A stretch of 16,567 bases of DNA from Eubacteriales bacterium (lineage in GTDB: Bacteria; Bacillota; Clostridia; Oscillospirales; Oscillospiraceae): assembly GCA_030528965.1 (NCBI GenBank), contig JAUMXS010000009.1:283-16849 (forward strand), read 5' to 3'. Position numbers and translations under genes: made by a program. The notes under the pieces are model-generated. The model searched no databases, was not told where the DNA came from, and worked only from the letters and a program-made list of their open reading frames with translations. Below, in pieces: positions 2 to 16,098 of the stretch. Positions within the stretch are counted from its first letter, which is position 1; every line of letters begins with the position of its first letter.

Positions 2-697
2 GACAAAAAGGTCCTCATGCCCGACCCCGCCGCCGACTGTCCCATGGCTCACATGGTCCGGCCCGGCATCATCGAGGAACTGCGGGAAGCCTATGACGAC
101 CTCGCCGTCGTATGCTACATCAATTCCACCGCCGATATGAAGTGCCTCAGCGACGTCTGCGTCACTTCCTCCAACGCCGTGAATATCATCCGCGCCCTGC
201 CGAACAAAAACATCTTTTTTATCCCCGACCGCAATCTCGGCCGCTTCGTTGCCGAACAGGTCCCCGAGAAGAATGTCATCCTTAACGACGGCTGCTGCCC
301 CGTCCATGCCGCCATCTCTCCCGATGAGCTGAAGGAACTGAAGGCCCAGTTCCCCAACGCTCCCGTCCTCAGCCATCCCGAATGTGAAGAACCCATTCTC
401 GCCCTCTCCGACTTCATCGGAAGTACCTCGGATATCATCGGCTACACCAAATCCAGCCCCGCTTCCGAGTTCATCATCTGCACCGAGGACGGCGTCGAAT
501 TCAAAATGTCCTCCTTTAACCCCGATAAGAAATTCTATTTCCCCAAAACCAGACCCTGCTGCAAAGACATGAAGCTCAATACCCTCGAAAATCTGCTCCA
601 TGTCCTCGAAACCGAAGAAAATGAAGTGACCGTCAGTGAGGAACTCAGCCGGAAGGCCCTCGTCCCGCTTGACAGAATGTTGGAGCTTGCGAAATAA
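2..697 (+). CDS. nadA: Quinolinate synthase, C-terminal part (5' end outside window)
   Basis: NadA condenses iminoaspartate (from NadB) with dihydroxyacetone phosphate to quinolinate, using a [4Fe-4S] cluster in the cytoplasm. The reading frame is already open at base 2 (DKKVLMPDPAADCPMAHMV), so the gene is cut by the window edge. About 231 residues are present of the roughly 300 usual for the short bacterial family, so some 70 N-terminal residues are missing. Numbering from the internal ATG at 17, the three cluster cysteines expected for the family are C48 in DVCVTSSNA, C123 in HPEC and C182 in CKDMK. The family motifs IPDRNLG and DGCCPVHA are also present. The stop is one base before the nadB start, so the two are probably translationally coupled. 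Codons end mostly in C. Identification is firm; only the true start is unknown. Confidence 0.96.
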   Translation, partial: DKKVLMPDPAADCPMAHMVRPGIIEELREAYDDLAVVCYINSTADMKCLSDVCVTSSNAVNIIRALPNKNIFFIPDRNLGRFVAEQVPEKNVILNDGCCPVHAAISPDELKELKAQFPNAPVLSHPECEEPILALSDFIGSTSDIIGYTKSSPASEFIICTEDGVEFKMSSFNPDKKFYFPKTRPCCKDMKLNTLENLLHVLETEENEVTVSEELSRKALVPLDRMLELAK

Positions 698-698
698 A

Positions 699-1961
699 AT
701 GATAACGGATGTTTTAATTATCGGATGCGGCGTTGCAGGCCTTTACTGTGCCCTCAATCTGCCGGAAGACCTGAACATCGTCATGGTCACCAAGGATGAA
801 GCTTCCAAAAGCGACTCCTTCCTTGCACAGGGCGGTATCTGTGTGCTTCGTGACGCCAATGACTATACCGCTTTCTTTGAAGATACCATGAAAGCCGGGC
901 ATTATGAAAATAACCCCGACTCCGTCGATATCATGATCCGTTCCTCTCAGGACGTCATCATCGACCTGCTGTCCTACGGCGTCTGCTTCGAAATGAACGG
1001 GGAAGAATTCTCCTATACCCGTGAGGGCGCACACACCAAACCCCGCGTCCTCTTCTATGAGGACGAAACCGGTAAGGAGATCACTTCCCATCTCCTCGAT
1101 ACCGCCCGGAAACGGAAAAATATCACCCTGATCGAAAACTTTACCATGGTCGATCTCGTCCGTGAGAAAAACGAATGCCGCGGCATCATCGGTCATAACC
1201 TGAACGGAGAATATTCCGCCATCCACGCCAACTATACCATCCTCGCCACCGGCGGCATCGGCGGTCTCTTCCAGCATTCCACCAACTATCGCCACCTCAC
1301 AGGCGATGCTCTGGCGCTGGCTCTGAAATACGATATCAAACTCCGCAACATCGATTACATCCAGATCCACCCCACCACCCTCTTTACGCATAAGGAAGGA
1401 CGCAAATTCCTGATTTCCGAATCCGTCCGCGGTGAGGGCGCTGTCCTCCTGAACTCCAAAGGTGAGCGCTTCGTCAATGAACTGCTCCCCCGTGACGTCG
1501 TTACCAACGCCATCCATGAGGAAATGAAAAAGGAAGGCTCCGAACACGTCTGGCTCTCCCTCGCTCCGATCCCCGTCGAAAAGATCATGACCCATTTCCC
1601 CAATATCTATCAGCACTGTCTCGATGAGGGCTATGACGTTACCAAGGAACCCATCCCCGTCGTCCCCTCCCAGCATTATTTCATGGGCGGTATCGATGTC
1701 GATACCCATGGCAAAACCTCCATGGATCGCCTCTATGCCGTCGGTGAGACCGCCTGCAACGGTGTCCACGGCAAAAACCGTCTCGCCAGCAATTCCCTCC
1801 TCGAAAGCCTCGTCTTTGCCAAACGCGCCGCGCGGCATATCTCCGCCCATTATTCCGTCACCGACCTGCCCGTCGAAACCGAGATCGACGAATCCCTCTA
1901 TCAAAACTATCAGGCTGAATATAAGCAGGCCGTACTCGAAGCGATTGAAAAGGAAAAGTAA
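699..1961 (+). CDS. nadB: L-aspartate oxidase, short form
   Basis: FAD enzyme that oxidises L-aspartate to iminoaspartate, the substrate of NadA; in anaerobes fumarate is the likely electron acceptor. I chose the ATG at 699 (MITDVLIIGCGVAG) because it puts the FAD-binding GxGxAG at residues 9-14, where the family has it; an ATG 63 bases upstream would add an unrelated tail lying inside nadA. Other motifs are SDSFLAQGG (38-46), IHPTT (H224), PRD (R265, matching Arg290 of the E. coli enzyme), HYFMGG (H326, matching His351) and the FAD-binding stretch ending NRLASNSLLES. At 420 residues it lacks most of the C-terminal helical domain of the about 540-residue E. coli enzyme; I believe short forms are common in Clostridia, so this is not read as truncation. 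The ribosome binding site is weak, consistent with coupling to nadA. nadC starts 4 bases after the stop. Confidence 0.95.
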   Translation: MITDVLIIGCGVAGLYCALNLPEDLNIVMVTKDEASKSDSFLAQGGICVLRDANDYTAFFEDTMKAGHYENNPDSVDIMIRSSQDVIIDLLSYGVCFEMNGEEFSYTREGAHTKPRVLFYEDETGKEITSHLLDTARKRKNITLIENFTMVDLVREKNECRGIIGHNLNGEYSAIHANYTILATGGIGGLFQHSTNYRHLTGDALALALKYDIKLRNIDYIQIHPTTLFTHKEGRKFLISESVRGEGAVLLNSKGERFVNELLPRDVVTNAIHEEMKKEGSEHVWLSLAPIPVEKIMTHFPNIYQHCLDEGYDVTKEPIPVVPSQHYFMGGIDVDTHGKTSMDRLYAVGETACNGVHGKNRLASNSLLESLVFAKRAARHISAHYSVTDLPVETEIDESLYQNYQAEYKQAVLEAIEKEK

Positions 1962-1965
1962 TATT

Positions 1966-2817
1966 ATGAATAATATCTCCATTAGACTCAACGCCGATGA
2001 CCAGATCCGCAGTGCTCTCAAAGAGGATATCGACAGCGAAGATATCTCCACCAACTCCGTCATGCGCGAATTCCGCCTCGGCGAAGTGGAACTCATCTGT
2101 AAACAGGACGGCATCGTCGCCGGTCTGGACGTCTTTAAACGAGTGTATACCATCCTCGATGAGAATATCGAGGCCACCTTTACCTGCAAAGACGGTGACG
2201 CTGTCAAAAACGGTGACGTCATCGGCCGTATCCGCGGCGATATCCGCGTTCTCCTCTCCGGTGAGCGCACCGCCCTCAATTACCTCCAGAGAATGAGCGG
2301 TATCGCTACCTATACCCACTCCGTCGCCTCCATGCTCAAGGATACCAATACCAAACTGCTCGATACCCGTAAAACGACCCCCAATATGCGCCTCTTTGAG
2401 AAATACGCCGTCAAAGTCGGCGGCGGCCATAACCATCGCTATAACCTCAGCGACGGGATCCTCCTCAAGGATAACCACATCAACGCCGCCGGCGGCGTCA
2501 AAGAAGCCGTCGCTATGGCCAGAGATTATGCCCCCTTCGTTCAGAAGATCGAGATCGAAGTCGAATCCCTCGATATGCTCCGCGATGCCCTCGAGGCCGG
2601 CGCCGATATTATCATGCTCGATAATATGAACGTCGACGATATGCGCGAAGCCGTCAAACTCTGCGCCGGCAAGGCCGTCACCGAATGCAGCGGCAACGTT
2701 ACAAGCGAGAATATCTCCAAACTCGTCGATATCGGCGTGGATTATATCTCCTGCGGCGCTCTCACCCATTCCGCGCCCATCCTTGACTTCTCCCTCAAAA
2801 ATCTTCATGCGATTTAA
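1966..2817 (+). CDS. nadC: Nicotinate-nucleotide pyrophosphorylase (carboxylating)
   Basis: NadC (quinolinate phosphoribosyltransferase) turns quinolinate and PRPP into nicotinate mononucleotide, CO2 and pyrophosphate. The protein has 283 residues, a normal family length. The start at 1966 (MNNISIRLNADDQIRSALKED) follows the nadB stop by 4 bases, behind a purine-rich AAGGAAAAG; upstream in-frame ATGs lie inside nadB. Diagnostic motifs are ERTALNYLQRMSGIAT (100-115), DTRKTTP (133-139), GGGHNHR (152-158), LLKDNH (166-171) and a C-terminal ECSGNV followed by the GVDYISCGALTHS phosphate-binding segment. It is the third enzyme of the nadABC operon and is followed after 18 bases by the regulator of the same pathway. 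Identification is secure from the motifs and the context. Confidence 0.96.
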   Translation: MNNISIRLNADDQIRSALKEDIDSEDISTNSVMREFRLGEVELICKQDGIVAGLDVFKRVYTILDENIEATFTCKDGDAVKNGDVIGRIRGDIRVLLSGERTALNYLQRMSGIATYTHSVASMLKDTNTKLLDTRKTTPNMRLFEKYAVKVGGGHNHRYNLSDGILLKDNHINAAGGVKEAVAMARDYAPFVQKIEIEVESLDMLRDALEAGADIIMLDNMNVDDMREAVKLCAGKAVTECSGNVTSENISKLVDIGVDYISCGALTHSAPILDFSLKNLHAI

Positions 2818-2835
2818 CCAAAGAAAGGATCCGGC

Positions 2836-3396
2836 ATGAAAGCGGTCGAAAGAAGAAAATCCATCGCTGCTCTCCTGATGACCGAAAAAAATGCTGTCTC
2901 GGGGAGCGCTCTGGCACAGCTGTTTCATGTGTCCAGACAGATCATCGTGCAGGATATCGCCCTCCTCAAAGGGCAGGGTTACGATATCCTCTCCACCCAT
3001 CAGGGCTATGTCCTCCAGAAATCCCCCCTCGCCGAACGCATCGTCAAACTGCGGCACAGTTCCGATCAGACCGAAGATGAACTCTGCACCATTGTCGATC
3101 TCGGCGGCACCGTCGTCGATGTTTTTGTTCGGCACAAGGTTTACGGTAAACTTTCCGCCCCTCTCAATATCTCCTCGCGCCAGCAGGTCCTTCTCTTTAT
3201 CGAGGGCGTGCGTACCGGTAAGTCCGTCGAACTCATGAACATCACCGGCGGATATCATTACCACACCATCCGCGCCGATTCCGAGCGTATCCTGGACGAG
3301 ATCGTTGCCCGGCTCCGGGATCGCGGATATCTGGCACCCGAGAAGGATCCCCAGGTTCCCGGGGACCTTTCCCATCCGGCTGTGTCCGATACTTAA
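2836..3396 (+). CDS. niaR: NAD biosynthesis transcriptional repressor, NiaR (YrxA) type, HTH plus 3H domain
   Basis: The 186-residue protein has an N-terminal winged-helix HTH (about 5-60; SGSALAQLFHVSRQIIVQDI is the recognition region) and a C-terminal 3H domain (about 70-180). NiaR proteins repress NAD synthesis and niacin uptake genes when nicotinate is available. H74, E82, H141 and H143 have the same spacing as the metal ligands I recall for the Thermotoga maritima homologue (His79, Glu87, His144, His146), and H100 may be the further conserved histidine. An AGGA lies 7 bases before the ATG. It is the last gene of the nad operon, so it probably represses its own synthesis through an operator upstream of nadA, which is outside this window. 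A strong terminator follows. Confidence 0.93.
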   Translation: MKAVERRKSIAALLMTEKNAVSGSALAQLFHVSRQIIVQDIALLKGQGYDILSTHQGYVLQKSPLAERIVKLRHSSDQTEDELCTIVDLGGTVVDVFVRHKVYGKLSAPLNISSRQQVLLFIEGVRTGKSVELMNITGGYHYHTIRADSERILDEIVARLRDRGYLAPEKDPQVPGDLSHPAVSDT

Positions 3397-3835: not shown

Positions 3836-3859
3836 ATCGGATGAACTTCCGATTTTTTT
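3836..3859. other. Small inverted repeat with flanking T tracts between the PLP enzyme and the small Cys-rich gene
   Basis: ATCGGA (3836-3841), loop TGAACT, TCCGAT (3848-3853), then six more T on the + strand (3854-3859). T tracts sit on both sides of the + strand, so as an intrinsic terminator it would work in the + direction, where there is no gene. On the minus strand it has no T tail, so read-through from the PLP gene into the small gene looks possible. It overlaps the PLP stop codon. Confidence 0.4.
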
Positions 3860-5318
3860 ACTTCTTTACGGCTTCATTGAATTCATTGATCAGAGCATCG
3901 ATCTCCGCCGCCTGACCGTGGACACTGCCCCAGAAGGTATCGTAATCATACCACTGTGCATCCAGCTCCGCCGCCGTGCGGCCCTGCTGTTCCACCCAGG
4001 TGTAGTACTTCAGATTGTGGATCCGCTTGCGCTCACGGTAGCCCAGCTCCAGCATATGATCCGTTCTCTGGCCGCCCAGATGCCGCGCATAATCCACCGC
4101 CGCAGCCTTGTCACTGTACGCTCCGTCGCGCTCACGCAGCTCTTCGATCCGCGAGCCGTACATCTCGATGCTGTCCGTCAGTACCGTCGCCAGCACGTCG
4201 TTCTCGCCCAGCTCATAGTACTTCGCCATCTTGATGCAGCACAGCAGGTTCGCAATGCCCGAAATGCCCAGAAGACCCAGCTTTTCGACCGTTTCTTCGT
4301 CCACACCAAGCTCATTCTTCAGAAATGCCCGGCCTTCCGGCTCGTTGAACAGTCTCGTCAGATTCTGGCTGTCATTATCGTCGATCGAGATGACCATATC
4401 CGTGTTCTTTACATTATGGATCCAGGGCACATGCTTGTCCCCGATACCCTCGATCCGATGTCCGCCGAAGCCGTTGTCCAGCAGCGTCGGACACTGCAGA
4501 GCCTCTCCCGCGCCGATCTTCAGGCCCGGATACTGCTCCTTCAGATAGTCGCCGGCACCGATCGTGCCCGCGCTGCCCGTCGTGAAGCACACGCCTGCCA
4601 GACGCTGGCCCGCAGTCTTCAGATTCTCAAAGGCTTCCGCGATGGCCCGGCCCGTGACCTCATAGTGCCACAGATGGTTGCCCATCTCCTCGAACTGGTT
4701 GAAGATCATATTCTGACTGTCCTGACGCAGTTCCGCCGTCTTGTCAAAGATCTCCTTCACGTTCGATTCACAGCCCGGAGTCGCAATGATCTCTCCCGCT
4801 ATGTTCCGAAGCCACTCAAAACGTTCCCGGCTCATCTCCGCCGGCAGAATTCCGATCGAATACACGCCCAGCAGGCGGGAGTTGAACGCTCCGCCGCGGC
4901 AATAGTTGCCCGTGCTCGGCCATACCGCCTTCTGCCGTTCCGCATCAAACTGTCCGGTCACCAGCCGCGGCACCAGACAGCCGAACGACGCGCCTACCTT
5001 GTGACAGCCGGTCGGGAAATATTTTCCCACCAGGGCAAATATCCGGCAGTTCACGCCCGTCAGTTCTTTCGGAAATTCAATATAATTCGGCGCTCCGAAC
5101 AGTCCGCCGCTCGCCTTCGGCTCGTTCTTCCATGTAATGCGGTACAGGTTCACCGGATCTATGTCCCACAGACCCGTCGTCTTCAGCTTTTCCTGTGCCT
5201 CTTCCGGTACCAAACGAGGATCCTTCATCTGCGCAAACGTCGGGATCACCACGCCGTTTTCCCGCGCTTTCCGTACGTTCCGCGCCCATACTTCGCGATT
5301 GATCGTCAAATCTATCAT
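3858..5318 (-). CDS. PLP-dependent enzyme, fold type II (cysteine synthase/tryptophan synthase beta-like), substrate unknown
   Basis: A 486-residue cytoplasmic protein of the tryptophan synthase beta superfamily, longer than CysK (about 310). The probable Schiff-base lysine is K107 in TGCHKVGASFG; PSTGN (134-138) matches the substrate and cofactor asparagine loop of this fold; the glycine-rich TTGSAGTIGAG (246-256) should hold the PLP phosphate. Conserved-looking blocks include FNQFEEMGNHLWHY, GGHRIEGIGDKHVPWIHNVK and a C-terminal KYYTWVEQQG. Large relatives in clostridia are usually annotated only as a PLP-dependent protein or cysteine synthase; the reaction (beta-replacement, lyase or dehydratase) cannot be named from sequence. 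The ATG at 5318 has AAGGAG (5327-5332) 8 bases upstream. A good promoter lies in the 101-bp gap before it, so it can be transcribed apart from the MATE gene. Confidence 0.88.
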   Translation of the reverse strand: MIDLTINREVWARNVRKARENGVVIPTFAQMKDPRLVPEEAQEKLKTTGLWDIDPVNLYRITWKNEPKASGGLFGAPNYIEFPKELTGVNCRIFALVGKYFPTGCHKVGASFGCLVPRLVTGQFDAERQKAVWPSTGNYCRGGAFNSRLLGVYSIGILPAEMSRERFEWLRNIAGEIIATPGCESNVKEIFDKTAELRQDSQNMIFNQFEEMGNHLWHYEVTGRAIAEAFENLKTAGQRLAGVCFTTGSAGTIGAGDYLKEQYPGLKIGAGEALQCPTLLDNGFGGHRIEGIGDKHVPWIHNVKNTDMVISIDDNDSQNLTRLFNEPEGRAFLKNELGVDEETVEKLGLLGISGIANLLCCIKMAKYYELGENDVLATVLTDSIEMYGSRIEELRERDGAYSDKAAAVDYARHLGGQRTDHMLELGYRERKRIHNLKYYTWVEQQGRTAAELDAQWYDYDTFWGSVHGQAAEIDALINEFNEAVKK

Positions 5319-7634: not shown

Positions 7635-8438
7635 TTAGCCTCCCAGTTCTTTCGTCCTCTCATAAGACGCACGCACCGCCCGGATCATTGCCGCGCGCAC
7701 GCCTCCGTCTTCCATCGCAGCTACGCCGCGGATCGTGCTTCCGCCGGGACTGCATACCGCATCCCGCAGTTCTCCCGTGTGCCGTCCCGTCTTCAGGACC
7801 AGTTCGGCGGCTCCGCGTGCCGCGCTCGCCGCCATCTTTACCGCGCTGGCCCGCGGCAGGCCGCACAATACGCCTCCGTCCGCCATCGCTTCCATGCAGA
7901 GATACATATATGCAGGTCCGCAGCCGCTCAATACGCCCGCCGCTTCCAGAAGCCCTTCACCCAGCTCCTCAAATTCACCCGCACTCTTCCACATCCTCAG
8001 CATCTCTGCCTTCTCGTCTTCCGTCACGCCGTCACAGCAGAATACCGTATAGCCGCAGCCGACCTGCACCGGCGTGTTCGGCACCATTCGTACCACCGGA
8101 TACTCTCCGCCGGCATATTCCCGGATCTTTTCCATCGTGATCCCCACGGCCAGGGATACCAGTATAAACCGATCCTCCCGTTTTGCCAAAACCGGCGCGA
8201 TCTCTTCCAGCACCGCACGCAGGCCCTGCGGCTTGACGCACAATACAACGATCTCGCTCTCACGCGCCACTTCGAGGTTATTCTTCGCCATCGCACAGTC
8301 TGTTTCCATGCTGAATGCGACCGCCTTCGTGACTGTCCGGTTGCTCACGATCACGTTTTCTGCGCCGACACCGCTGATCGCTGCGCGAGCCATCGCGCTG
8401 CCCATCGTTCCCGTTCCGATAAATCCTGCTTTTTTCAT
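7635..8438 (-). CDS. proC: Pyrroline-5-carboxylate reductase
   Basis: ProC reduces pyrroline-5-carboxylate to L-proline with NAD(P)H, the last step of proline synthesis. The protein has 267 residues with the N-terminal Rossmann motif GFIGTGTMG (5-13), VKPQ, the SLAVGI and RMVPNTP segments, and the family signature LSGCGPAYMYL followed by a C-terminal SPGGSTIRG. I place the start at 8438 (MKKAGFIGTG) because AAGGAG (8446-8451) is 7 bases upstream; an in-frame ATG 18 bases earlier has no such site. There are 60 bases between the recF stop and this start and no convincing promoter in them, so it may be read through from recF or have a weak promoter. In the usual order gyrB would follow recF; here proC does. 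Confidence 0.95.
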   Translation of the reverse strand: MKKAGFIGTGTMGSAMARAAISGVGAENVIVSNRTVTKAVAFSMETDCAMAKNNLEVARESEIVVLCVKPQGLRAVLEEIAPVLAKREDRFILVSLAVGITMEKIREYAGGEYPVVRMVPNTPVQVGCGYTVFCCDGVTEDEKAEMLRMWKSAGEFEELGEGLLEAAGVLSGCGPAYMYLCMEAMADGGVLCGLPRASAVKMAASAARGAAELVLKTGRHTGELRDAVCSPGGSTIRGVAAMEDGGVRAAMIRAVRASYERTKELGG

Positions 8439-8498: not shown

Positions 8499-9602
8499 TC
8501 AAACAGCAAAGGTGGGATATACCTTCCCACCCTTCAGATAATACCTCGCCGGGCCAAGCTCCGTTTCCTCACAGCTCGTGATCAGCGTCTGACTGCCGCC
8601 CAATCGATGCAGCAGATAGCTCCGGCGTCCCGCATCCAGTTCCGACAATACATCGTCCAAAAGAAGAATAGGACTTTCCTCCGTCTCCTTCTCCAGTATC
8701 TCACGCTCCGCCAGCTTTACGGATATCGCTGCCGTACGTGCCTGACCCTGTGACGCATAGGCCCGTGCCTCCCGGCCCGATACCTCTATTTCCATCTCAT
8801 CCCTGTGCGCGCCGACCAGACACAGTCCCGAGTCCAGCTCCGCCTGACGCAGTTCCGCCTGACGCGTATACAGTTTCTCGTATATCTCCCGTGCCGGGGC
8901 TTCCGCATCCTCGATGCCCGCTCCGCAGCGATATCGCAGCCGAAGTTCTTCCCGCTTGTCCGTGAACTCACCGTGGATCCTTCCGGCCTCTTCTCCCAGC
9001 CTGCGCACATACGACGCGCGTGCCCGTATTATATGCACCGATGCGGCACAGAGCGCCGCCGAGTATTCTTCCAGCATTTCCAGCAGGGATGCTTTCTCAT
9101 GCCATCCCCGCAAAATCGCACGCTTTTGTTCCAGCACTCGCTCATATTCCGTCAGCCGGCGCGCGTAGCCCGGCCGCAGCTGTCCGATCGCACGGTCTAT
9201 CTGCTGCCTGCGCAGTCCCGGTCCGCCTCTAACCAGCTGCAGATCATCCGGACTGAATATCACGGCCCGCAGTACGTCTCCCAGTTCCGCGCTTGAAGAT
9301 TTTACCCCGTTCCGGAAACTTCTTCGGCCCGTTCCGCGCCGGATCCGCAGCTCTATCTTCTGCTCCCGGCCGCCGGATTCCACCTTGCCGCGGATGATCG
9401 TCATGTCGCCGTCAAACCGGATCAGCTCCCGGTCATAGCGCGCACGAAAACTCGGTGCGCCCGTCATCAGGTACGCCGCTTCCAGAAGCGTCGTTTTTCC
9501 CTGCGCGTTCGCACCAAGTATGATATTCGTGCCTTCACAGAATTCTATTTTCTGATCCGCGAGCATCCGGAATCCTTCTGTTTCCAGTTCAATGATCCGC
9601 AT
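8499..9602 (-). CDS. recF: DNA replication and repair protein RecF
   Basis: RecF is an SMC-like ATPase that, with RecO and RecR, loads RecA at single-strand gaps and stalled forks. The 367 residues fit the family. Walker A is GANAQGKTT (30-38), the ABC-type signature is SQGQARTA (284-291) and Walker B is ILLLDD (312-317) followed by VLSELD, the D-loop. The middle region (about 140-260) is the helical arm, rich in Arg and Glu. The ATG at 9602 lies within the last codons of yaaA (14-bp overlap), with GGGAG upstream inside yaaA, so translation is coupled. It belongs to the dnaN-yaaA-recF block typical of Bacillota. Confidence 0.96.
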
Positions 9603-9828: not shown

Positions 9829-10947
9829 TTATTCCTCCGAACGGAGCCGCACCGGCAGGACCAGATACAGAAACTTTTCTTCTCCGTCCGCCGCCCGGAT
9901 CACACAGGGAGATGTCGAAGTATTGAAGCTCAGTTTCAGCTGATCCGCAGGCGCAGCACGCAGCGCTTCCAGCAGATATCGGTTATTGAATCCTATCTCG
10001 AATCCTTTGCCGTCTCCGTCCACCGCGCACACGTCTTCCGCACGGCCCATCGGTGTATTGCAGCGGATCCATAGTTCCGAATCCCCAAACACACAGCGCA
10101 GCGGATGCCGCGTTCTGTCATCTACAAACAGCGCAACACGGTCCGCACACCGGATCAGATCCGAACGCTCCGCCTTGAATTCCAGTGTGAAATTCGAGGG
10201 AATGCTCTTTCTGTAATCCAGAAAATCTCCCTCCAGCCGACGGCTGATCAGTTCCGTCTTATCTCCGCGCAGACTGATATGCCGGCTTCCTACTCCGATA
10301 TAAAGCTCGTCCTCCTCCGTGAACAATTTGCCCACGTCGGACAGTGCCGTTCCCGGAACGACAAACTTTTCCGCCTGCATCTCACTGCCTTCGAGTTTTT
10401 CATGCCGCAGCGCCAGCCGGAAACCGTCCAGCGCGACGATCGTGATATCCTCGCCTTCCGTTTCAAACAGAGCGCCGGTATAGATCGGGCGGCTTTCGTT
10501 GTCCGACAGAGAGAAGATCGTCTCATCGATCATCGAAACCAGCGTATCCCGGGGAACTTTCAGCTCCGCGTCACCTTCCACTTCCGGAAGTTCGGGATAT
10601 TCGCCGGCATCCATCGCCTGCATCTCGTATGCCGTCCGGCCGCCTTTGATAACAGTCCGGCCGTTATCTTCACATTCCACGCTCACTGCCCCGTCCGGCA
10701 GTTTCCGCAGAATATCACCCAGTACCTTTGCACTCAAAACAATACGGCCGCCGATTTTTACATCCGCCGCAAAATGCGTCCGGATCCCTTTCTTCAGGTC
10801 GTATCCCGTTATTTCCACATCACTTGAACCGGTGCTCCCACAGAGCAGCAGACCTTCCAGCACCGCAATCGGACTCCGCGCCGCAGATGCACGCGACGCT
10901 GTCGTCACCGCCGTCAGAAACCACTGTTTCTCTCCGATGAATTTCAT
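9829..10947 (-). CDS. dnaN: DNA polymerase III beta subunit (sliding clamp)
   Basis: The homodimeric ring that tethers DNA polymerase III to DNA. The 372-residue length is standard for three clamp domains (about 1-125, 126-250, 251-372). Recognisable segments are LEGLLLCGS and ITGYDLKKGIRT in domain 1, AMDAGEYPELP, ALDGFRLALRHEKL in domain 2, RVALFVDDRTRHPLRCVFGD in domain 3 and the C-terminal LVLPVRLRSEE, which resembles the conserved end lining the partner-binding pocket. The start at 10947 has GAGGAGG (10955-10961) 7 bases upstream. dnaN would normally follow dnaA, but the upstream neighbour here is aspS, with a DnaA-box cluster between them. A dnaN promoter must lie in 10962-11200 but I cannot assign a convincing -35/-10 pair. 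Confidence 0.96.
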   Translation of the reverse strand: MKFIGEKQWFLTAVTTASRASAARSPIAVLEGLLLCGSTGSSDVEITGYDLKKGIRTHFAADVKIGGRIVLSAKVLGDILRKLPDGAVSVECEDNGRTVIKGGRTAYEMQAMDAGEYPELPEVEGDAELKVPRDTLVSMIDETIFSLSDNESRPIYTGALFETEGEDITIVALDGFRLALRHEKLEGSEMQAEKFVVPGTALSDVGKLFTEEDELYIGVGSRHISLRGDKTELISRRLEGDFLDYRKSIPSNFTLEFKAERSDLIRCADRVALFVDDRTRHPLRCVFGDSELWIRCNTPMGRAEDVCAVDGDGKGFEIGFNNRYLLEALRAAPADQLKLSFNTSTSPCVIRAADGEEKFLYLVLPVRLRSEE

Positions 10948-10969
10948 TTTCCGTCCTCCTCATATCTTT

Positions 10970-11203
10970 CGTTCTCTATCTATCAGACAGATAGAAAGAA
11001 TATATTTGTAGTAGTAGTGTCAGTAGAAGGAATGCTTTGTGGAAAAGTGGGCTGAGGCCTTGAAATTGTTAGAAAAATTTTCCGCAGTTCCCTGTTGATA
11101 ATTTAGACGGTTTTCCACAGCTCGCTTCAGCCCTTTTCGGATGGTTCCTTTTTCCACAGATGTGAACATCTATGTTTTCCACAATTGCGGAACCTGTGCA
11201 AAA
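10970..11203. other. oriC: Candidate replication origin: DnaA-box cluster with AT-rich region upstream of dnaN
   Basis: Five 9-mers fit the DnaA-box consensus TTWTNCACA: 11038-11046 (-), 11111-11119 (+), 11150-11158 (+), 11175-11183 (+), all TTTTCCACA, and 11195-11203 (-), TTTTGCACA. TTATCAACA at 11093-11101 (-) is one base off, and ATGTTCACA at 11161-11169 (-) two off. On the dnaN side are a TAG-triplet run (11009-11029) and an AT-rich stretch (10970-11010) with inverted repeat CTATCT/AGATAG (10976-10981, 10989-10994). This order (boxes, triplets, AT-rich DNA, dnaN) is that of the dnaN-proximal half of Bacillus-type origins. Against it: no dnaA next door and no visible strand-skew change. 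The alternative is a DnaA-controlled dnaN promoter or a relic. No other gene lies in 10948-11295. Confidence 0.7.
11009..11029 (+). promoter_or_regulatory. Possible DnaA-trio element
   Basis: Seven consecutive triplets TAG TAG TAG TGT CAG TAG AAG; five fit the DnaA-trio pattern (5'-[T/A]A[G/A]-3'). The run ends 8 bases before a DnaA box (11038-11046) and is bordered on the other side by AT-rich DNA, the arrangement described for the Bacillus subtilis unwinding element, where DnaA extends from the box onto one strand. Two triplets are off pattern, and the spacer is not GC-rich. Confidence 0.5.
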
Positions 11204-11295: not shown

Positions 11296-12588
11296 TCAGG
11301 GAGTCAGACGGTTCGGGCCGCGGAACAGGAACATGACTTCCTTGATCGTGATGCCCAGGATCAGCATGGTCATGCGGTCGATGCCCAGACCAAATCCGCC
11401 GTGCGGCGGGCAGCCGTAGCGGAAGAACTCCAGATAGAACTTGACATCTTCGCCCAGTCCCTTTTCATCCGCCTGCGCCTTCAGCTGCTCATAGCGATGC
11501 TCACGCTGTGCGCCCGTCGTGATCTCCACGCCGCGCCAGATGAGGTCATAGCCCAAAGGCATGCCGTTTTCGTCACGCATATGATAGAAAGCACGCTTTT
11601 CGGGCTTGTAATCCGTGATGAACAGGAATTCGTGGCCGAACTTTTCCATGGACAACTGGGCACAGAGTCTCTCCGCCTCCGTCGTGAGGTCGTTCTTTTC
11701 TTCTTCCGGTACCGTGAAGCCGTAGCGTTCTTCCAGTTCCCGATATACATCTTCCAGCTTCATTTCGGGGAAGGGGAGAGTCGGTACGATCACTTCCAGA
11801 CCGAATACTTCCTTGATCTTCTCGCCCCAGCGTTCCTTGACCTGCGCAAGGCAGTACTGCAGCAGCTCCGCTTCAAAGGCCATGACGTCACGGAAGCTTT
11901 CGATGCAGCTCATTTCCATATCAAAGCCGGTGAACTCGGTGGCATGCTTGTTCGTGAAGGATTTCTCCGCGCGGAATACCGGGCCGACTTCAAAGATACG
12001 GTCAAATCCCGAGGCCATCGCCATCTGCTTATAGAACTGCGGGCTCTGGCTCAGGTATGCCTTGCGGTCAAAGTAGCCCAGCTCGAAAACGTCCGCGCCG
12101 CTCTCACTCGCCGCGCCGATCAGCTTCGGCGTATGGATCTCCATGAAATGATGATCCAGCATAAACTGACGCATCGCCGCTACCAATGTCGTCTGGACCT
12201 GGAAGATCAGCGTATTGCGCTCGGACCGCAGATCGAGCCAGCGATAATCGATGCGCAGATCGATCGAAGAATCCTCCTTGATCGGGAAGGCTTCCGCGAT
12301 GCTCTCGATCTGCATCGTATCCGGAAGCATCTCTTTGCCGCCCATCTTGACATATTCGTTGCTCACGACCGGGCCTTCCGCCGTTACGAATGAACCGATG
12401 CTCAGACTGTCAATCACCGGAATCAGAGCCTCGTTCTTGCTCTTTTCCACCGTTACCTGCAGTTTGCCCGTTATGTCACGGATGACCAGAAACGCCATCG
12501 TCCGCTTGTTCCGCAGATTCTCCACGAAACCCTGGATCTTCATGCGTTCGCCGGTTCCCTGTACATCTCCTATATACGTTCTTTCCAT
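11296..12588 (-). CDS. aspS: Aspartyl-tRNA synthetase, archaeal/eukaryotic-type (short, class IIb)
   Basis: Charges tRNA-Asp (and perhaps tRNA-Asn) with aspartate. The 430-residue protein has an N-terminal OB-fold anticodon domain (about 1-105) and a class II catalytic core with motif 2 FRAEKSFTNKHATEFTGFDM and motif 3 GGFGLGIDRMTM. ESGADVFELGYFDRKAYLSQ followed by SPQFYKQ is the aspartate-site pattern rather than that of AsnRS. It lacks the GAD insertion domain of classical bacterial AspRS (about 590 residues), so it belongs to the archaeal-type branch also found in many Clostridia. Whether it is non-discriminating cannot be decided here; a GatCAB amidotransferase elsewhere would favour that. 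The start at 12588 has AAGAGGA upstream. No terminator is seen after the stop, so its transcripts point into the DnaA-box region and dnaN. Confidence 0.92.
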   Translation of the reverse strand: MERTYIGDVQGTGERMKIQGFVENLRNKRTMAFLVIRDITGKLQVTVEKSKNEALIPVIDSLSIGSFVTAEGPVVSNEYVKMGGKEMLPDTMQIESIAEAFPIKEDSSIDLRIDYRWLDLRSERNTLIFQVQTTLVAAMRQFMLDHHFMEIHTPKLIGAASESGADVFELGYFDRKAYLSQSPQFYKQMAMASGFDRIFEVGPVFRAEKSFTNKHATEFTGFDMEMSCIESFRDVMAFEAELLQYCLAQVKERWGEKIKEVFGLEVIVPTLPFPEMKLEDVYRELEERYGFTVPEEEKNDLTTEAERLCAQLSMEKFGHEFLFITDYKPEKRAFYHMRDENGMPLGYDLIWRGVEITTGAQREHRYEQLKAQADEKGLGEDVKFYLEFFRYGCPPHGGFGLGIDRMTMLILGITIKEVMFLFRGPNRLTP

Positions 12589-12611: not shown

Positions 12612-12639
12612 TTTATCGCTATACATTGCTGAATGTCAA
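12612..12639 (-). promoter_or_regulatory. Probable promoter of aspS
   Basis: On the minus strand there is a perfect -35 TTGACA (12634-12639), 16-base spacer and GATAAA (12612-12617) as a 4/6 match to the -10. The -35 overlaps the stop codon of the upstream LtaS-like gene. The -10 choice is uncertain. Confidence 0.45.
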
Positions 12640-14519
12640 TTCGTTTCTTTTAAATAGTACTGTACCTTCAGATACCGGTCCAGTACCGCCTGCGCCTTTT
12701 CGGATGCTTCATCCGTGAGCTTTCCGTTTTCCCGGACCAGTCCTGCGATATGGACCACATCCAGATATTCGCCCAGTTCCCGTCCCATCTGTGTCCAGCC
12801 GGGTCCTTTCCAGCCGCAGAGTTCGAAAACACGCGGCATCAGAAGATAGGGCGAGAACGTTCCGCCTTCTTCTCCGCTCAGCGGCATATCCAGCGCTTCC
12901 TTTGCCGCTTCGTTTCCCCAGAATACCCACGGCGTTTCGTAGAAGTCATAGAAACTCGCGTCCGTCTGGCGGCTTAAGTCGATGCCCATATCTTCATACA
13001 CGAAGCTTCCGTCCCCCAGCCAGGGATTGTGGTCCCCAAACAGCAGAACGACCACCGGCTCTTCCATCGCACGGTATTCTTCGATCATTTTCTCCAGCGC
13101 CTTGTCCGTCTCCCGGATGCCCCAGAGATAATTGTTCAGAATATAATAACTCTCCGGCCGGATCCCGTCCGCCGATATATATTCTCTCTCCGTGTCATAC
13201 AGATAGTTCACCGCATACGGCCCGTGGTTCTGGTATGTGACCATGAAGCCGAAGAACGGCTCATCCTTCGCCGCCGAATCTTTCAGCCGGCCCGTCAGGA
13301 TATCAAATGCCCCGTCATCCATCATGAAGGTATCGTCCCAGGGCATCGCATACAGCGTTTCCCGGAAGTGGACCTCATCGAAGCCCAGATAGTCCATCAC
13401 GTTCTGACGATTATAGAACCAGCCGTAGAAAGGATGGTGGAACTCCGTTTTATATCCCTGTTCTCCGAACCAGCGGGCATAGGACCACGCGTCTGTCCGG
13501 TATTCATACATCTCCGTCGAACCCGTGATCACACAGCGCTCCGTGTCGATCGTTCCGCCCGCGAAGATGTTCGTTACCAGTTTTCCCGTTACGCCTTCTT
13601 CCTGCAGTTTATGGAAAAAGGCGTATGGGTCGGCCTCTTCCGTAAACGTGAGGCCCATGAGATCGCTCATGTCGTTGTACGCTTCCAGCATGATGCAGAT
13701 GAAGTGTACCTTTTCTTCCTCTTCCAGCGGCGCCTGATCCTTATATGCAGACAGGATCTCGGAGGCATTCCGCTCCGTATATCCCGACGGAGCTGTGTTT
13801 ACCACCTGCTTCGCGCTGTAGATCAGAGGATAAATATAACCCCGGCTGACATACTGGTCCGTCTCGTTCCACGGCGAAAGCCAGCGCGAGTTCGAAAGTT
13901 CCACGTCCAGATTTTCCGTCTTTTTGTAGATCTCTTCGCTCCGGTATACCGTCGGCCACAAAGCGCCGCCCACCAGAGCCCATACCAGGATCCACGCAAG
14001 CCGCGTCTTAATAGACCGGAACTTTCCCCGGACCAATACCGCACAGAATATCGTCCCCGCGATGATCGCTCCGTAGGTCAACGCAATGGACGGCGTCACC
14101 GGCAGCGAATATCCCTGCACCGCCGATATGTCCAGTGCTTCGAAGAAATATCCGAAATCGATCCACATCATCGGATTGCCCCGGAACAGGATCTTGAAAT
14201 AATTGGCCAGTGCTGCCGTACTGAAAAAAATTCCGCTCACCAGTACCGTCAGCCAGACCCGATTCGTGAGTCCGTAGAGAATATACGACGCCCAGATGAG
14301 CGGGAACAGATTTAATATGATCGTCAGCGGAATGTCAAAATACGACCGGAACATCTCCCGTCCGTAGTTCGCCTTCGCAAAAAACAGACACACCAGTCCA
14401 AGACCCAGTCCCCAAAGACTGAGCAGCAGCAAACGAATCCAGAATTTGTCGCCCCAGCTTCGCAGATGCGCCAGACCCGTCTTTTTCGTTTGTCCGGATG
14501 GTTCATGGTTCTGCTTCAT
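12636..14519 (-). CDS. LtaS-like membrane phosphoglycerol transferase/sulfatase-family protein
   Basis: A 627-residue polytopic protein of the lipoteichoic acid synthase family: five predicted N-terminal membrane helices (about 27-49, 63-84, 88-110, 145-165, 172-192), then a large extracellular alkaline-phosphatase-fold domain (about 270-600). Aligning motifs with Staphylococcus LtaS gives metal ligands E279 (MLEAYND), nucleophile T323 (AGGTIDTE, versus GKTSDSE), D496 and H497 (FGDHNP), and substrate histidine H432 (QNHGPY). It probably transfers glycerol phosphate or a similar group from a lipid to an envelope polymer. Whether this is true LTA or another glycopolymer modification is open. 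The start at 14519 follows AGAGG by 10 bases. It lies between two tRNA synthetase genes with no clear promoter of its own, only about 30 bases after a terminator-like hairpin. Confidence 0.9.
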   Translation of the reverse strand: MKQNHEPSGQTKKTGLAHLRSWGDKFWIRLLLLSLWGLGLGLVCLFFAKANYGREMFRSYFDIPLTIILNLFPLIWASYILYGLTNRVWLTVLVSGIFFSTAALANYFKILFRGNPMMWIDFGYFFEALDISAVQGYSLPVTPSIALTYGAIIAGTIFCAVLVRGKFRSIKTRLAWILVWALVGGALWPTVYRSEEIYKKTENLDVELSNSRWLSPWNETDQYVSRGYIYPLIYSAKQVVNTAPSGYTERNASEILSAYKDQAPLEEEEKVHFICIMLEAYNDMSDLMGLTFTEEADPYAFFHKLQEEGVTGKLVTNIFAGGTIDTERCVITGSTEMYEYRTDAWSYARWFGEQGYKTEFHHPFYGWFYNRQNVMDYLGFDEVHFRETLYAMPWDDTFMMDDGAFDILTGRLKDSAAKDEPFFGFMVTYQNHGPYAVNYLYDTEREYISADGIRPESYYILNNYLWGIRETDKALEKMIEEYRAMEEPVVVLLFGDHNPWLGDGSFVYEDMGIDLSRQTDASFYDFYETPWVFWGNEAAKEALDMPLSGEEGGTFSPYLLMPRVFELCGWKGPGWTQMGRELGEYLDVVHIAGLVRENGKLTDEASEKAQAVLDRYLKVQYYLKETN

Positions 14520-14682: not shown

Positions 14683-16098
14683 TCAGTACTGTACTTTCTC
14701 GCGAATATAGGCCGCTACTTCCGAAATGGGAATACGGACCTGAGACATGCTGTCGCGCTCACGGATGGTCACGCAGTGGTCAGCTTCCGTCTTGTCGTCG
14801 CCGACAGTCTGGAAGTCCACCGTGATGCAGTACGGCGTGCCGATCTCGTCCTCACGGCGATAGCGCTTGCCGATCGATCCGGTGTCGTCATAATCGCACA
14901 TGAATTCACGGCTCAGCTGCTCATGCAGTTCCTTCGCGGGGCCGGCCAGCTTCTTCGACAGAGGCAGGATCGCGCACTTGAAGGGAGCCAGCGCCGGATG
15001 CAGGTGCAGGACCGTACGCACATCGTTCTTCGCCTCATCGATGACTTCTTCGTCATAGGCTTCACACAGGAATGCCAGCGCTACACGATCCGCGCCCAGA
15101 GACGGCTCAATGACGTACGGAATGTACTTCGTGTTCTTTTCCTGATCGTAGTAGCTCATATCCTGACCGGAGGTGTTCTGGTGCTGCGTCAGGTCGTAGT
15201 TGGTACGGTCCGCAACGCCCCACAGTTCGCCCCAGCCAAACGGGAACAGATATTCAAAGTCCGTCGTCGCCTTGGAGTAGAAGGACAGCTCTTCCGGACC
15301 ATGGTCGCGCAGACGCAGGCTCTCATCCTTCATGCCCAGCTCAAGCAGCCACTGGTGGCAGAACTCACGCCAGTATTCAAACCACTCGAGGTCGGTGTCC
15401 GGCTCGCAGAAGAACTCCAGTTCCATCTGCTCGAATTCTCTCGTGCGGAAGGTGAAGTTGCCCGGCGTGATCTCGTTGCGGAAGCTCTTGCCTACCTGGC
15501 AGATGCCGAACGGGATCTTGCGGCGGGTCGTACGCTGGACGTTCTTGAAGTTTACGAAGATGCCCTGCGCCGTTTCCGGACGAAGATATACTTCCGTGCC
15601 GGTGTCTTCCGTTACGCCCTGGTGCGTCTTGAACATCAGGTTGAACTTGCGGATGCCGGTGAAGTCGGATTTGCCGCAGCCGGGGCAGGGAATGTTCTGC
15701 TCTTCGATGAAGGCGACCATGTCGTCGTTCGTCATCGCTTCGACATTCGCTTCAAAACCGGTCTCTTTGCACCAGGCTTCGATCAGCTTGTCCGCGCGAT
15801 GGCGCATCTTGCAGGATTTGCAGTCGATCAGAGGATCGTTGAAGTTCGTGACGTGGCCGGAAGCTACCCACGCCTGCGGGTTCATCAGAATGGCCGCGTC
15901 CAGTCCGACGTTGTACGGATTTTCCTGTACAAACTTCTTCCACCATGCACGCTTTACGTTGTTCTTGAACTCCACACCCAGAGGACCGTAGTCCCAGGTA
16001 TTGGCCAGTCCGCCGTAGATCTCACTGCCGGCAAATATATAGCCGCGCCCTTTGCAAAGAGCTACGACTTTTTCCATCGTCTTTTCTTTGTTATCCAT
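14683..16098 (-). CDS. glyS: Glycyl-tRNA synthetase, dimeric (alpha2) type
   Basis: Charges tRNA-Gly with glycine. The 471-residue protein is the eukaryote/archaeal-like dimeric form, not the alpha2beta2 GlyQ/GlyS form. It shows TWDYGPLG (35-41) typical of the family, two zinc-type pairs C93-xx-C96 and C138-xx-C141, motif 2 in [10 protein letters not shown] and [15 protein letters not shown], motif 3 in [12 protein letters not shown], and a C-terminal anticodon-binding domain from about residue 370 ([10 protein letters not shown]). The start at 16098 is preceded by GAAGGGG about 9 bases away; a second in-frame ATG (residue 8, base 16077) is possible but has a poorer site. A good promoter (16160-16188) gives a leader of only about 55 bases, too short for the T-box riboswitch that often controls GlyRS in Bacillota. 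Confidence 0.95.

Follow-up and report, generated by a model that had tools for sequence, protein, structure and literature searches.

A DnaA-box cluster with a DnaA-trio lies beside dnaN and apart from dnaA in a draft genome of the Oscillospiraceae

The aspS-dnaN intergenic region

The stretch of DNA analysed here (16,567 bp; hereafter, the window) lies on contig C127 (19,634 bp) in a draft assembly of 1.248 Mb, which comprises 167 contigs and is 71% complete. Its genes and sequence elements are collected in Table 1. As the initial annotation had noted, aspS is transcribed towards the cluster of DnaA boxes described below and occupies the canonical place of dnaA. The sulfatase-family protein encoded next to it is presumably LtaS-like. 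At the far end of the window, a NadA-NadB-NadC run and a 3H-domain regulator are encoded (17-3396), an N run immediately beyond the window truncating NadA; we take the regulator to be NiaR-like, and the gene name of NadB is likewise our assumption. Also just outside the window is a 100-N scaffold gap (L004, 16850-16949), on the flanks of which a repeated GC-rich element was noticed.

Table 1. Coordinates of genes and sequence elements in the window
Feature	Position	Strand	Remarks
PLP-dependent enzyme	3858-5318		
proC	7635-8438	-	TIGR00112; after recF, where relatives carry remB-gyrB
recF	8499-9602	-	TIGR00611
dnaN, DNA polymerase III beta subunit	9829-10947	-	TIGR00663
AT-rich stretch, candidate unwinding element	10961-11020	.	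70% AT vs 45% for the window; overlaps the trio
oriC-like region (AT-rich part, DnaA-trio and box cluster)	10970-11203	.	sequence elements
DnaA-trio TAGTAGTAGTGTCAGTAG (+ strand; CTACTGACACTACTACTA on the dnaN strand)	11009-11026	+	spaced 11 nt from the box nearest dnaN; 10-11 nt in most relatives
Trio-proximal DnaA box TTTTCCACA	11038-11046	-	exact; position 0 of the array
Near box TTTTCCGCA	11078-11086	+	one mismatch
Near box TTATCAACA	11093-11101	-	one mismatch; position -55, common to 35/72 aligned relatives
DnaA box TTTTCCACA	11111-11119	+	exact; position -73; relatives' counts 19, 23, 7 at -72, -73, -74 (n=72)
DnaA box TTTTCCACA	11150-11158	+	exact; position -112; relatives' counts 6, 12, 3 at -110, -111, -112 (n=72)
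DnaA box TTTTCCACA	11175-11183	+	exact; position -137; relatives' box there mostly in opposite orientation
DnaA box TTTTGCACA	11195-11203	-	exact; aspS-side end of the cluster
Aspartate--tRNA(Asn) ligase (aspS), in dnaA's place	11296-12588	-	NF003483; reads towards the cluster
Sulfatase-family protein	12636-14519	-	PF00884
glyS	14683-16098	-	NF003211; near the origin in several relatives

The gap between aspS and dnaN is 348 bp long and contains, within 166 bp (11038-11203), five exact DnaA boxes (TTWTNCACA) and two boxes with one mismatch; the five boxes of the initial annotation are hence retained, while its single near match has become two. The cluster is indeed denser than chance, as had been claimed: when the window was resampled 200 times with a first-order Markov model, 166-bp stretches held a maximum of 2 exact boxes, or 4 with up to one mismatch. 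No further group of three close exact boxes was found among the matches listed for the assembly. Also, C127, with 5, is the sole contig to exceed 2 exact boxes in 209 bp among the 43 of 167 contigs sampled, four of which were represented by 20,000 bases; 2 were counted in five of the other sampled contigs and 1 or 0 in the rest. When boxes with one mismatch were included, up to 7 and up to 6 were found in 209 bp of C19 and C116, respectively, in neither case with an exact box among them.

The most telling element of the segment is a DnaA-trio, which is absent from the initial annotation. It is located between the last box and dnaN, with the TAG repeats on the strand opposite to CTACTGACACTACTACTA, and is followed by AT-rich DNA, which had been correctly placed on the dnaN side of the boxes. 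A motif combining a box with a trio (TTTTCNACA-N8-16-CTACT) has one match in the draft assembly, at the cluster. The order of box, trio and AT-rich DNA is that of a basal unwinding system described in Bacillus subtilis and predicted for clostridia (PMC6669920, PMC7561715). A scan of the intergenic region for promoters and terminators found nothing, and Rfam at gathering scores gave no match in the window or in the contig carrying dnaA (C39).

Comparison with relatives and with known origins

Relatives of dnaN were collected by using a DnaN alignment as the query, a single DnaN query having given none, and the best 80 of 575, mostly from uncultured Oscillospiraceae/Clostridiales drafts, were kept. 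In 79 of these 80 loci, dnaA adjoins dnaN; in the remaining locus (L159), no match to dnaA was found in the 720 bp upstream of dnaN, and gaps of 701 and 1,067 bp do occur in the family. Among the genomes of the family, dnaA and dnaN are adjacent on one contig in all of the 57 assessable ones (of 60; G037, G048 and G059 were set aside, and only the C-terminal part of dnaA at a contig end was used in G019 and G058). The gap is shorter than 700 bp in 55 of the 57 and has the two lengths mentioned above in the others. Furthermore, the order of dnaA-dnaN-recF was found in 20/20 stretches of relatives (recF being cut by the contig end in one), followed by remB and gyrB where the contig continues.

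The dnaA-dnaN gaps of the relatives are rich in boxes, with a mean of 5.13 boxes with up to one mismatch vs 0.98 in shuffled sequences (94 loci), whereas the mean in the 300 bp upstream of dnaA is 1.08 vs 0.64 (89 loci). A clear trio, i.e., two or more consecutive CTA following a box, is present in 63 of the 94 distinct gap sequences; a run of two CTA is absent in the other 31, which counts against reading the cluster as oriC. The distance from the box to the start of the trio is 10 or 11 nt in 54 of 64 sequences (63 relatives and the window). A stricter box-trio motif, which the window lacks, matched in 9 of 39 relatives, in all nine once between dnaA and dnaN, with one stray match in G010. 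When the boxes were aligned with the trio-proximal box as the anchor, which was feasible for 72 of the 94 loci, they recurred at -55 (35 loci), about -73 (49 at -72 to -74) and about -111 (21 at -110 to -112), and the window shares all three. The gap of the window has, moreover, local nucleotide similarity to 31 of the 94 dnaA-dnaN gaps at E<=0.05 (best, 6e-11), whereas 4 of 100 shuffled queries gave any match (2 targets or fewer each, 5 matches in all, best E of 0.002). Given the shared box positions, trio spacing and local similarity, sequence comparison indicates that the cluster is the family's dnaA-dnaN origin minus dnaA, i.e., the orthologue of the dnaN-proximal half (oriC2/incC); these same features uphold the earlier assignment to the dnaN-proximal half of a Bacillus-type oriC.

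The incC of B. subtilis and clostridial oriC2 have in common with the window the box array, the trio-proximal box, the DnaA-trio, the AT-rich DNA and dnaN downstream (PMC6669920, PMC7561715). In incC/oriC2, however, dnaA is immediately upstream, whereas the window has aspS there and dnaA is on C39; also, the bipartite origin of clostridia and Bacillus has oriC1 upstream of dnaA, whereas no exact-box cluster is next to dnaA here. In Clostridioides difficile, unwinding in vitro required both halves of oriC (PMC7561715), which counts against the dnaN-side half alone. The layout itself is not new in kind, since an oriC beside dnaN with dnaA encoded separately is already known from cyanobacteria, where dnaN is on one side in 55 of 68 species; an oriC adjoining dnaN, a dnaA elsewhere and TTTTCCACA boxes are common to the two (PMC4674748 and PMC7198777). 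Cyanobacteria belong to another phylum, however, and the split here was seen in a single genome, from a family in which the relatives have dnaA joined to dnaN; this genome also retains the Bacillus-type trio. The window thus resembles the cyanobacterial type of origin in layout only and is not a member of it, because the relatives of its dnaN come mostly from the drafts named above. According to a review (PMC4285127), many bacteria have oriC in another gene context. For the window's family, no report of a dnaN-linked oriC without dnaA was found in the literature, some items of which were judged by their title or the start of their abstract.

Separate contigs carry dnaA and dnaN in 5 of the 34 assessable genomes from the order's other families (G063, G064, G086 and G098 were set aside). 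One of these, G071, is similar to the window in that dnaA is unlinked and exact boxes are found upstream of dnaN, three within 78 bp as compared with five in the window; the trio in G071 is poorly recognisable, and no exact box was found within 5 kb of its dnaA. Two genomes of the same genus in another family, G066 (L210/L211) and G089 (L212/L213), also have dnaA and dnaN on different contigs, but no exact box was found upstream of either gene. Both genomes were noticed to have dnaN-recF-remB-gyrB without dnaA. The separation in G067 may be due to contig ends, and the dnaN match of G092 is solitary, with neither dnaA nor recF beside it.

As for aspS, its product is a 430-aa enzyme of the aspartate--tRNA(Asn) type. 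A close relative was found only in G074, which belongs to another family (67%; among 59 relatives), while the next near full-length matches were at 38% or less; aspS may hence be an acquired replacement. In its own assembly, the AspRS has one other match only, a 478-aa frame on C138. One of the AspRS relatives (P0002, 543 aa) appears to have its C-terminal part duplicated internally. A foreign origin was also considered for the aspS-side flank as a whole and was rejected, since glyS has relatives of up to 80% in the family.

The dnaA contig and the direction of replication forks

The sole dnaA of the assembly is on a separate contig, C39, in agreement with the initial annotation, which had noted its absence beside the cluster; dnaA and dnaN are each present in a single copy. 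The gene order on C39 is rnpA-rpmH-galU-like-queT-queH-unnamed gene-spoIIR-dnaA-GT2 glycosyltransferase-rSAM-like-remB-gyrB-xdhC, in which galU-like and radical-SAM-like were called from matches below curated cut-offs and the latter name is our assumption. As compared with the relatives, dnaN-recF and the boxes are missing between dnaA and remB. The 252 bp upstream of dnaA contain no exact box (two overlapping near boxes are there), and a single exact box exists on the whole contig, near rpmH and 4 kb from dnaA. Within this range, therefore, no second cluster of the oriC1 type was found beside dnaA; a search for any second cluster had been proposed in the initial annotation. Contig-end overlaps among the 43 fetched contigs were limited to C1-C3, and C127 and C39 are unlinked. 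No parS was found on C127 or C39; two perfect parS sites are near parA-parB on C78 (L110, 3459-3474 and 3597-3612), which is unlinked to dnaA or dnaN, so that parS does not help in placing the origin.

GC skew was evaluated with 408 genes, called by a simple codon model, in 43 of the 167 contigs, and a single fork direction was the best fit for 33 of the 43. Leading and lagging distributions were taken from other contigs (206 and 147 genes) with labels based on the total skew of the same contigs and are hence partly circular; by these distributions, C127 and C39 are each one-directional as whole contigs. The skew test named in the initial annotation thus gave no sign change at the cluster, where the strength alone changes, nor on C39. 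The five genes on the aspS side are better fitted by forks moving as on the dnaN side, with 17.8 log units in sum against reversal (8.7 without the two genes beyond the 100-N scaffold gap), and the mean GC3 skew is 0.31 on the dnaN side vs 0.09 on the aspS side (exact permutation, 1/462; eleven one-strand genes of our choice). A skew minimum at another locus, which had been set against the origin reading, was not seen beside dnaA, but weak minus-to-plus changes do exist on C124 (L123, about 3.7-4.0 kb; gain of 9.1 log units) and C49 (L114, about 5.8-6.0 kb; 6.7 log units), the strongest in the 43 contigs, and neither has an exact-box cluster. In relatives, the total skew from left to right of dnaA goes up in 12 and down in 6 of 18. 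C39 is no better candidate for the origin, since its skew keeps one sign and its only exact box is 4 kb away from dnaA. A reversal is expected at a settled bidirectional origin, whereas none is expected after a recent rearrangement or with an origin elsewhere; a recent move would explain why it is missing. Were the cluster a long-standing bidirectional origin, aspS and glyS would be transcribed head-on to the fork.

Origin status and history of the cluster

We consider it probable that the segment is the oriC of the chromosome, namely the dnaN-side half carrying nearly all DnaA boxes of the family, which was split from dnaA...remB-gyrB by a rearrangement; to judge from its sequence, the cluster is most likely a working oriC that was rearranged together with dnaN-recF, an arrangement known from this one draft genome. 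DnaA, encoded elsewhere, would assemble on the box array, and the trio-proximal box would direct it onto the TAG repeats, where it would form a filament on the single strand and open the AT-rich DNA next to dnaN. Separation of the oriC-dnaN-recF block from the dnaA...remB-gyrB block by a chromosomal rearrangement would be tolerable, since the boxes needed in cis would be those on the dnaN side. The scarcity of boxes upstream of dnaA and their richness in the dnaA-dnaN gap suggest that dependence on the dnaN-side half is already a trait of the family, and losing the link to dnaA would then be harmless.

Alternatively, the cluster might be a displaced or inherited remnant, which is preserved as a dnaN promoter under DnaA control or as a DnaA-titrating site while the working origin is elsewhere, for example, in an unassembled stretch. 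We regard this as rather improbable: the trio, the spacing and the box array are intact and like those of the relatives' origins, and a second box-trio motif was not found in the assembly, even though the lack of a skew reversal at the cluster and the absence of about 29% of the genome would be consistent with a remnant, as would the skew of C39 and C127, which fits forks arriving from outside both contigs. The minus-to-plus changes on C124 and C49 point in the same direction, but both contigs stay at or below 2 exact boxes in 209 bp, and C124 is compositionally odd.

Quite unlikely is an artefact of assembly or binning, in which C127 and/or C39 would be chimeric and dnaA would truly adjoin dnaN. 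For this, four junctions (dnaA/GT2, rSAM-like/remB, aspS/boxes and recF/proC), which are unseen in the fetched relatives and all at gene borders, must be wrong. To be sure, the genome is known from one draft of metagenome type, the C127 scaffold contains N runs, there is a change in composition and skew strength across the junction, and the best relative of aspS is in another family; a second copy of the species was not seen either (the AspRS cluster of the assembly has one member on one contig). The junction between aspS and the boxes, however, has no N and is without a repeat in the 43 fetched contigs; the best relatives of dnaN, recF and glyS on C127 and of dnaA on C39 all come from the same family, and single copies of dnaA and dnaN also argue against an artefact. 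Finally, chance clustering can practically be dismissed: single exact boxes are common (106 in 1.25 Mb), but the resampled windows never came near five, and the positions and the trio are conserved.

Returning to the cluster as a working oriC, its separation from dnaA suggests that the origin can follow dnaN and not dnaA once both part, and that dnaA need not be in cis. The neighbourhood of rnpA-rpmH-dnaA-dnaN serves as a landmark of the origin in Bacillota, and origin-calling based on dnaA would then presumably be wrong here. The lineage is also a testable case of origins that lose one half and then move.

As to the route, C127 in reverse (proC, recF, dnaN, boxes, aspS, LtaS-like gene, glyS) and then C39 would approximate the order in G005, G014 and G030, in which an LtaS-like gene and glyS are left of rnpA-rpmH-dnaA and read away from the origin; the oriC-dnaN-recF block might have been lifted out and reinserted in inverted orientation beyond the LtaS-like gene. 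Because C127 and C39 are unlinked in the assembly, this is a route that we infer. It is conceivable, albeit doubtful, that oriC-dnaN-recF recently left its place between dnaA and remB-gyrB as one inverted block and came to lie on the far side of glyS, the strand composition still recording older fork directions. If so, this would be a natural relocation of an origin in progress, made possible because the origin of the family no longer needs boxes near dnaA. Other relatives differ in the placement of glyS: G022 and G036 carry it on the gyrB side, G077 has it between rpmH and dnaA, and in the stretches covered of G003, G011, G019 and G023 it is not near the origin.
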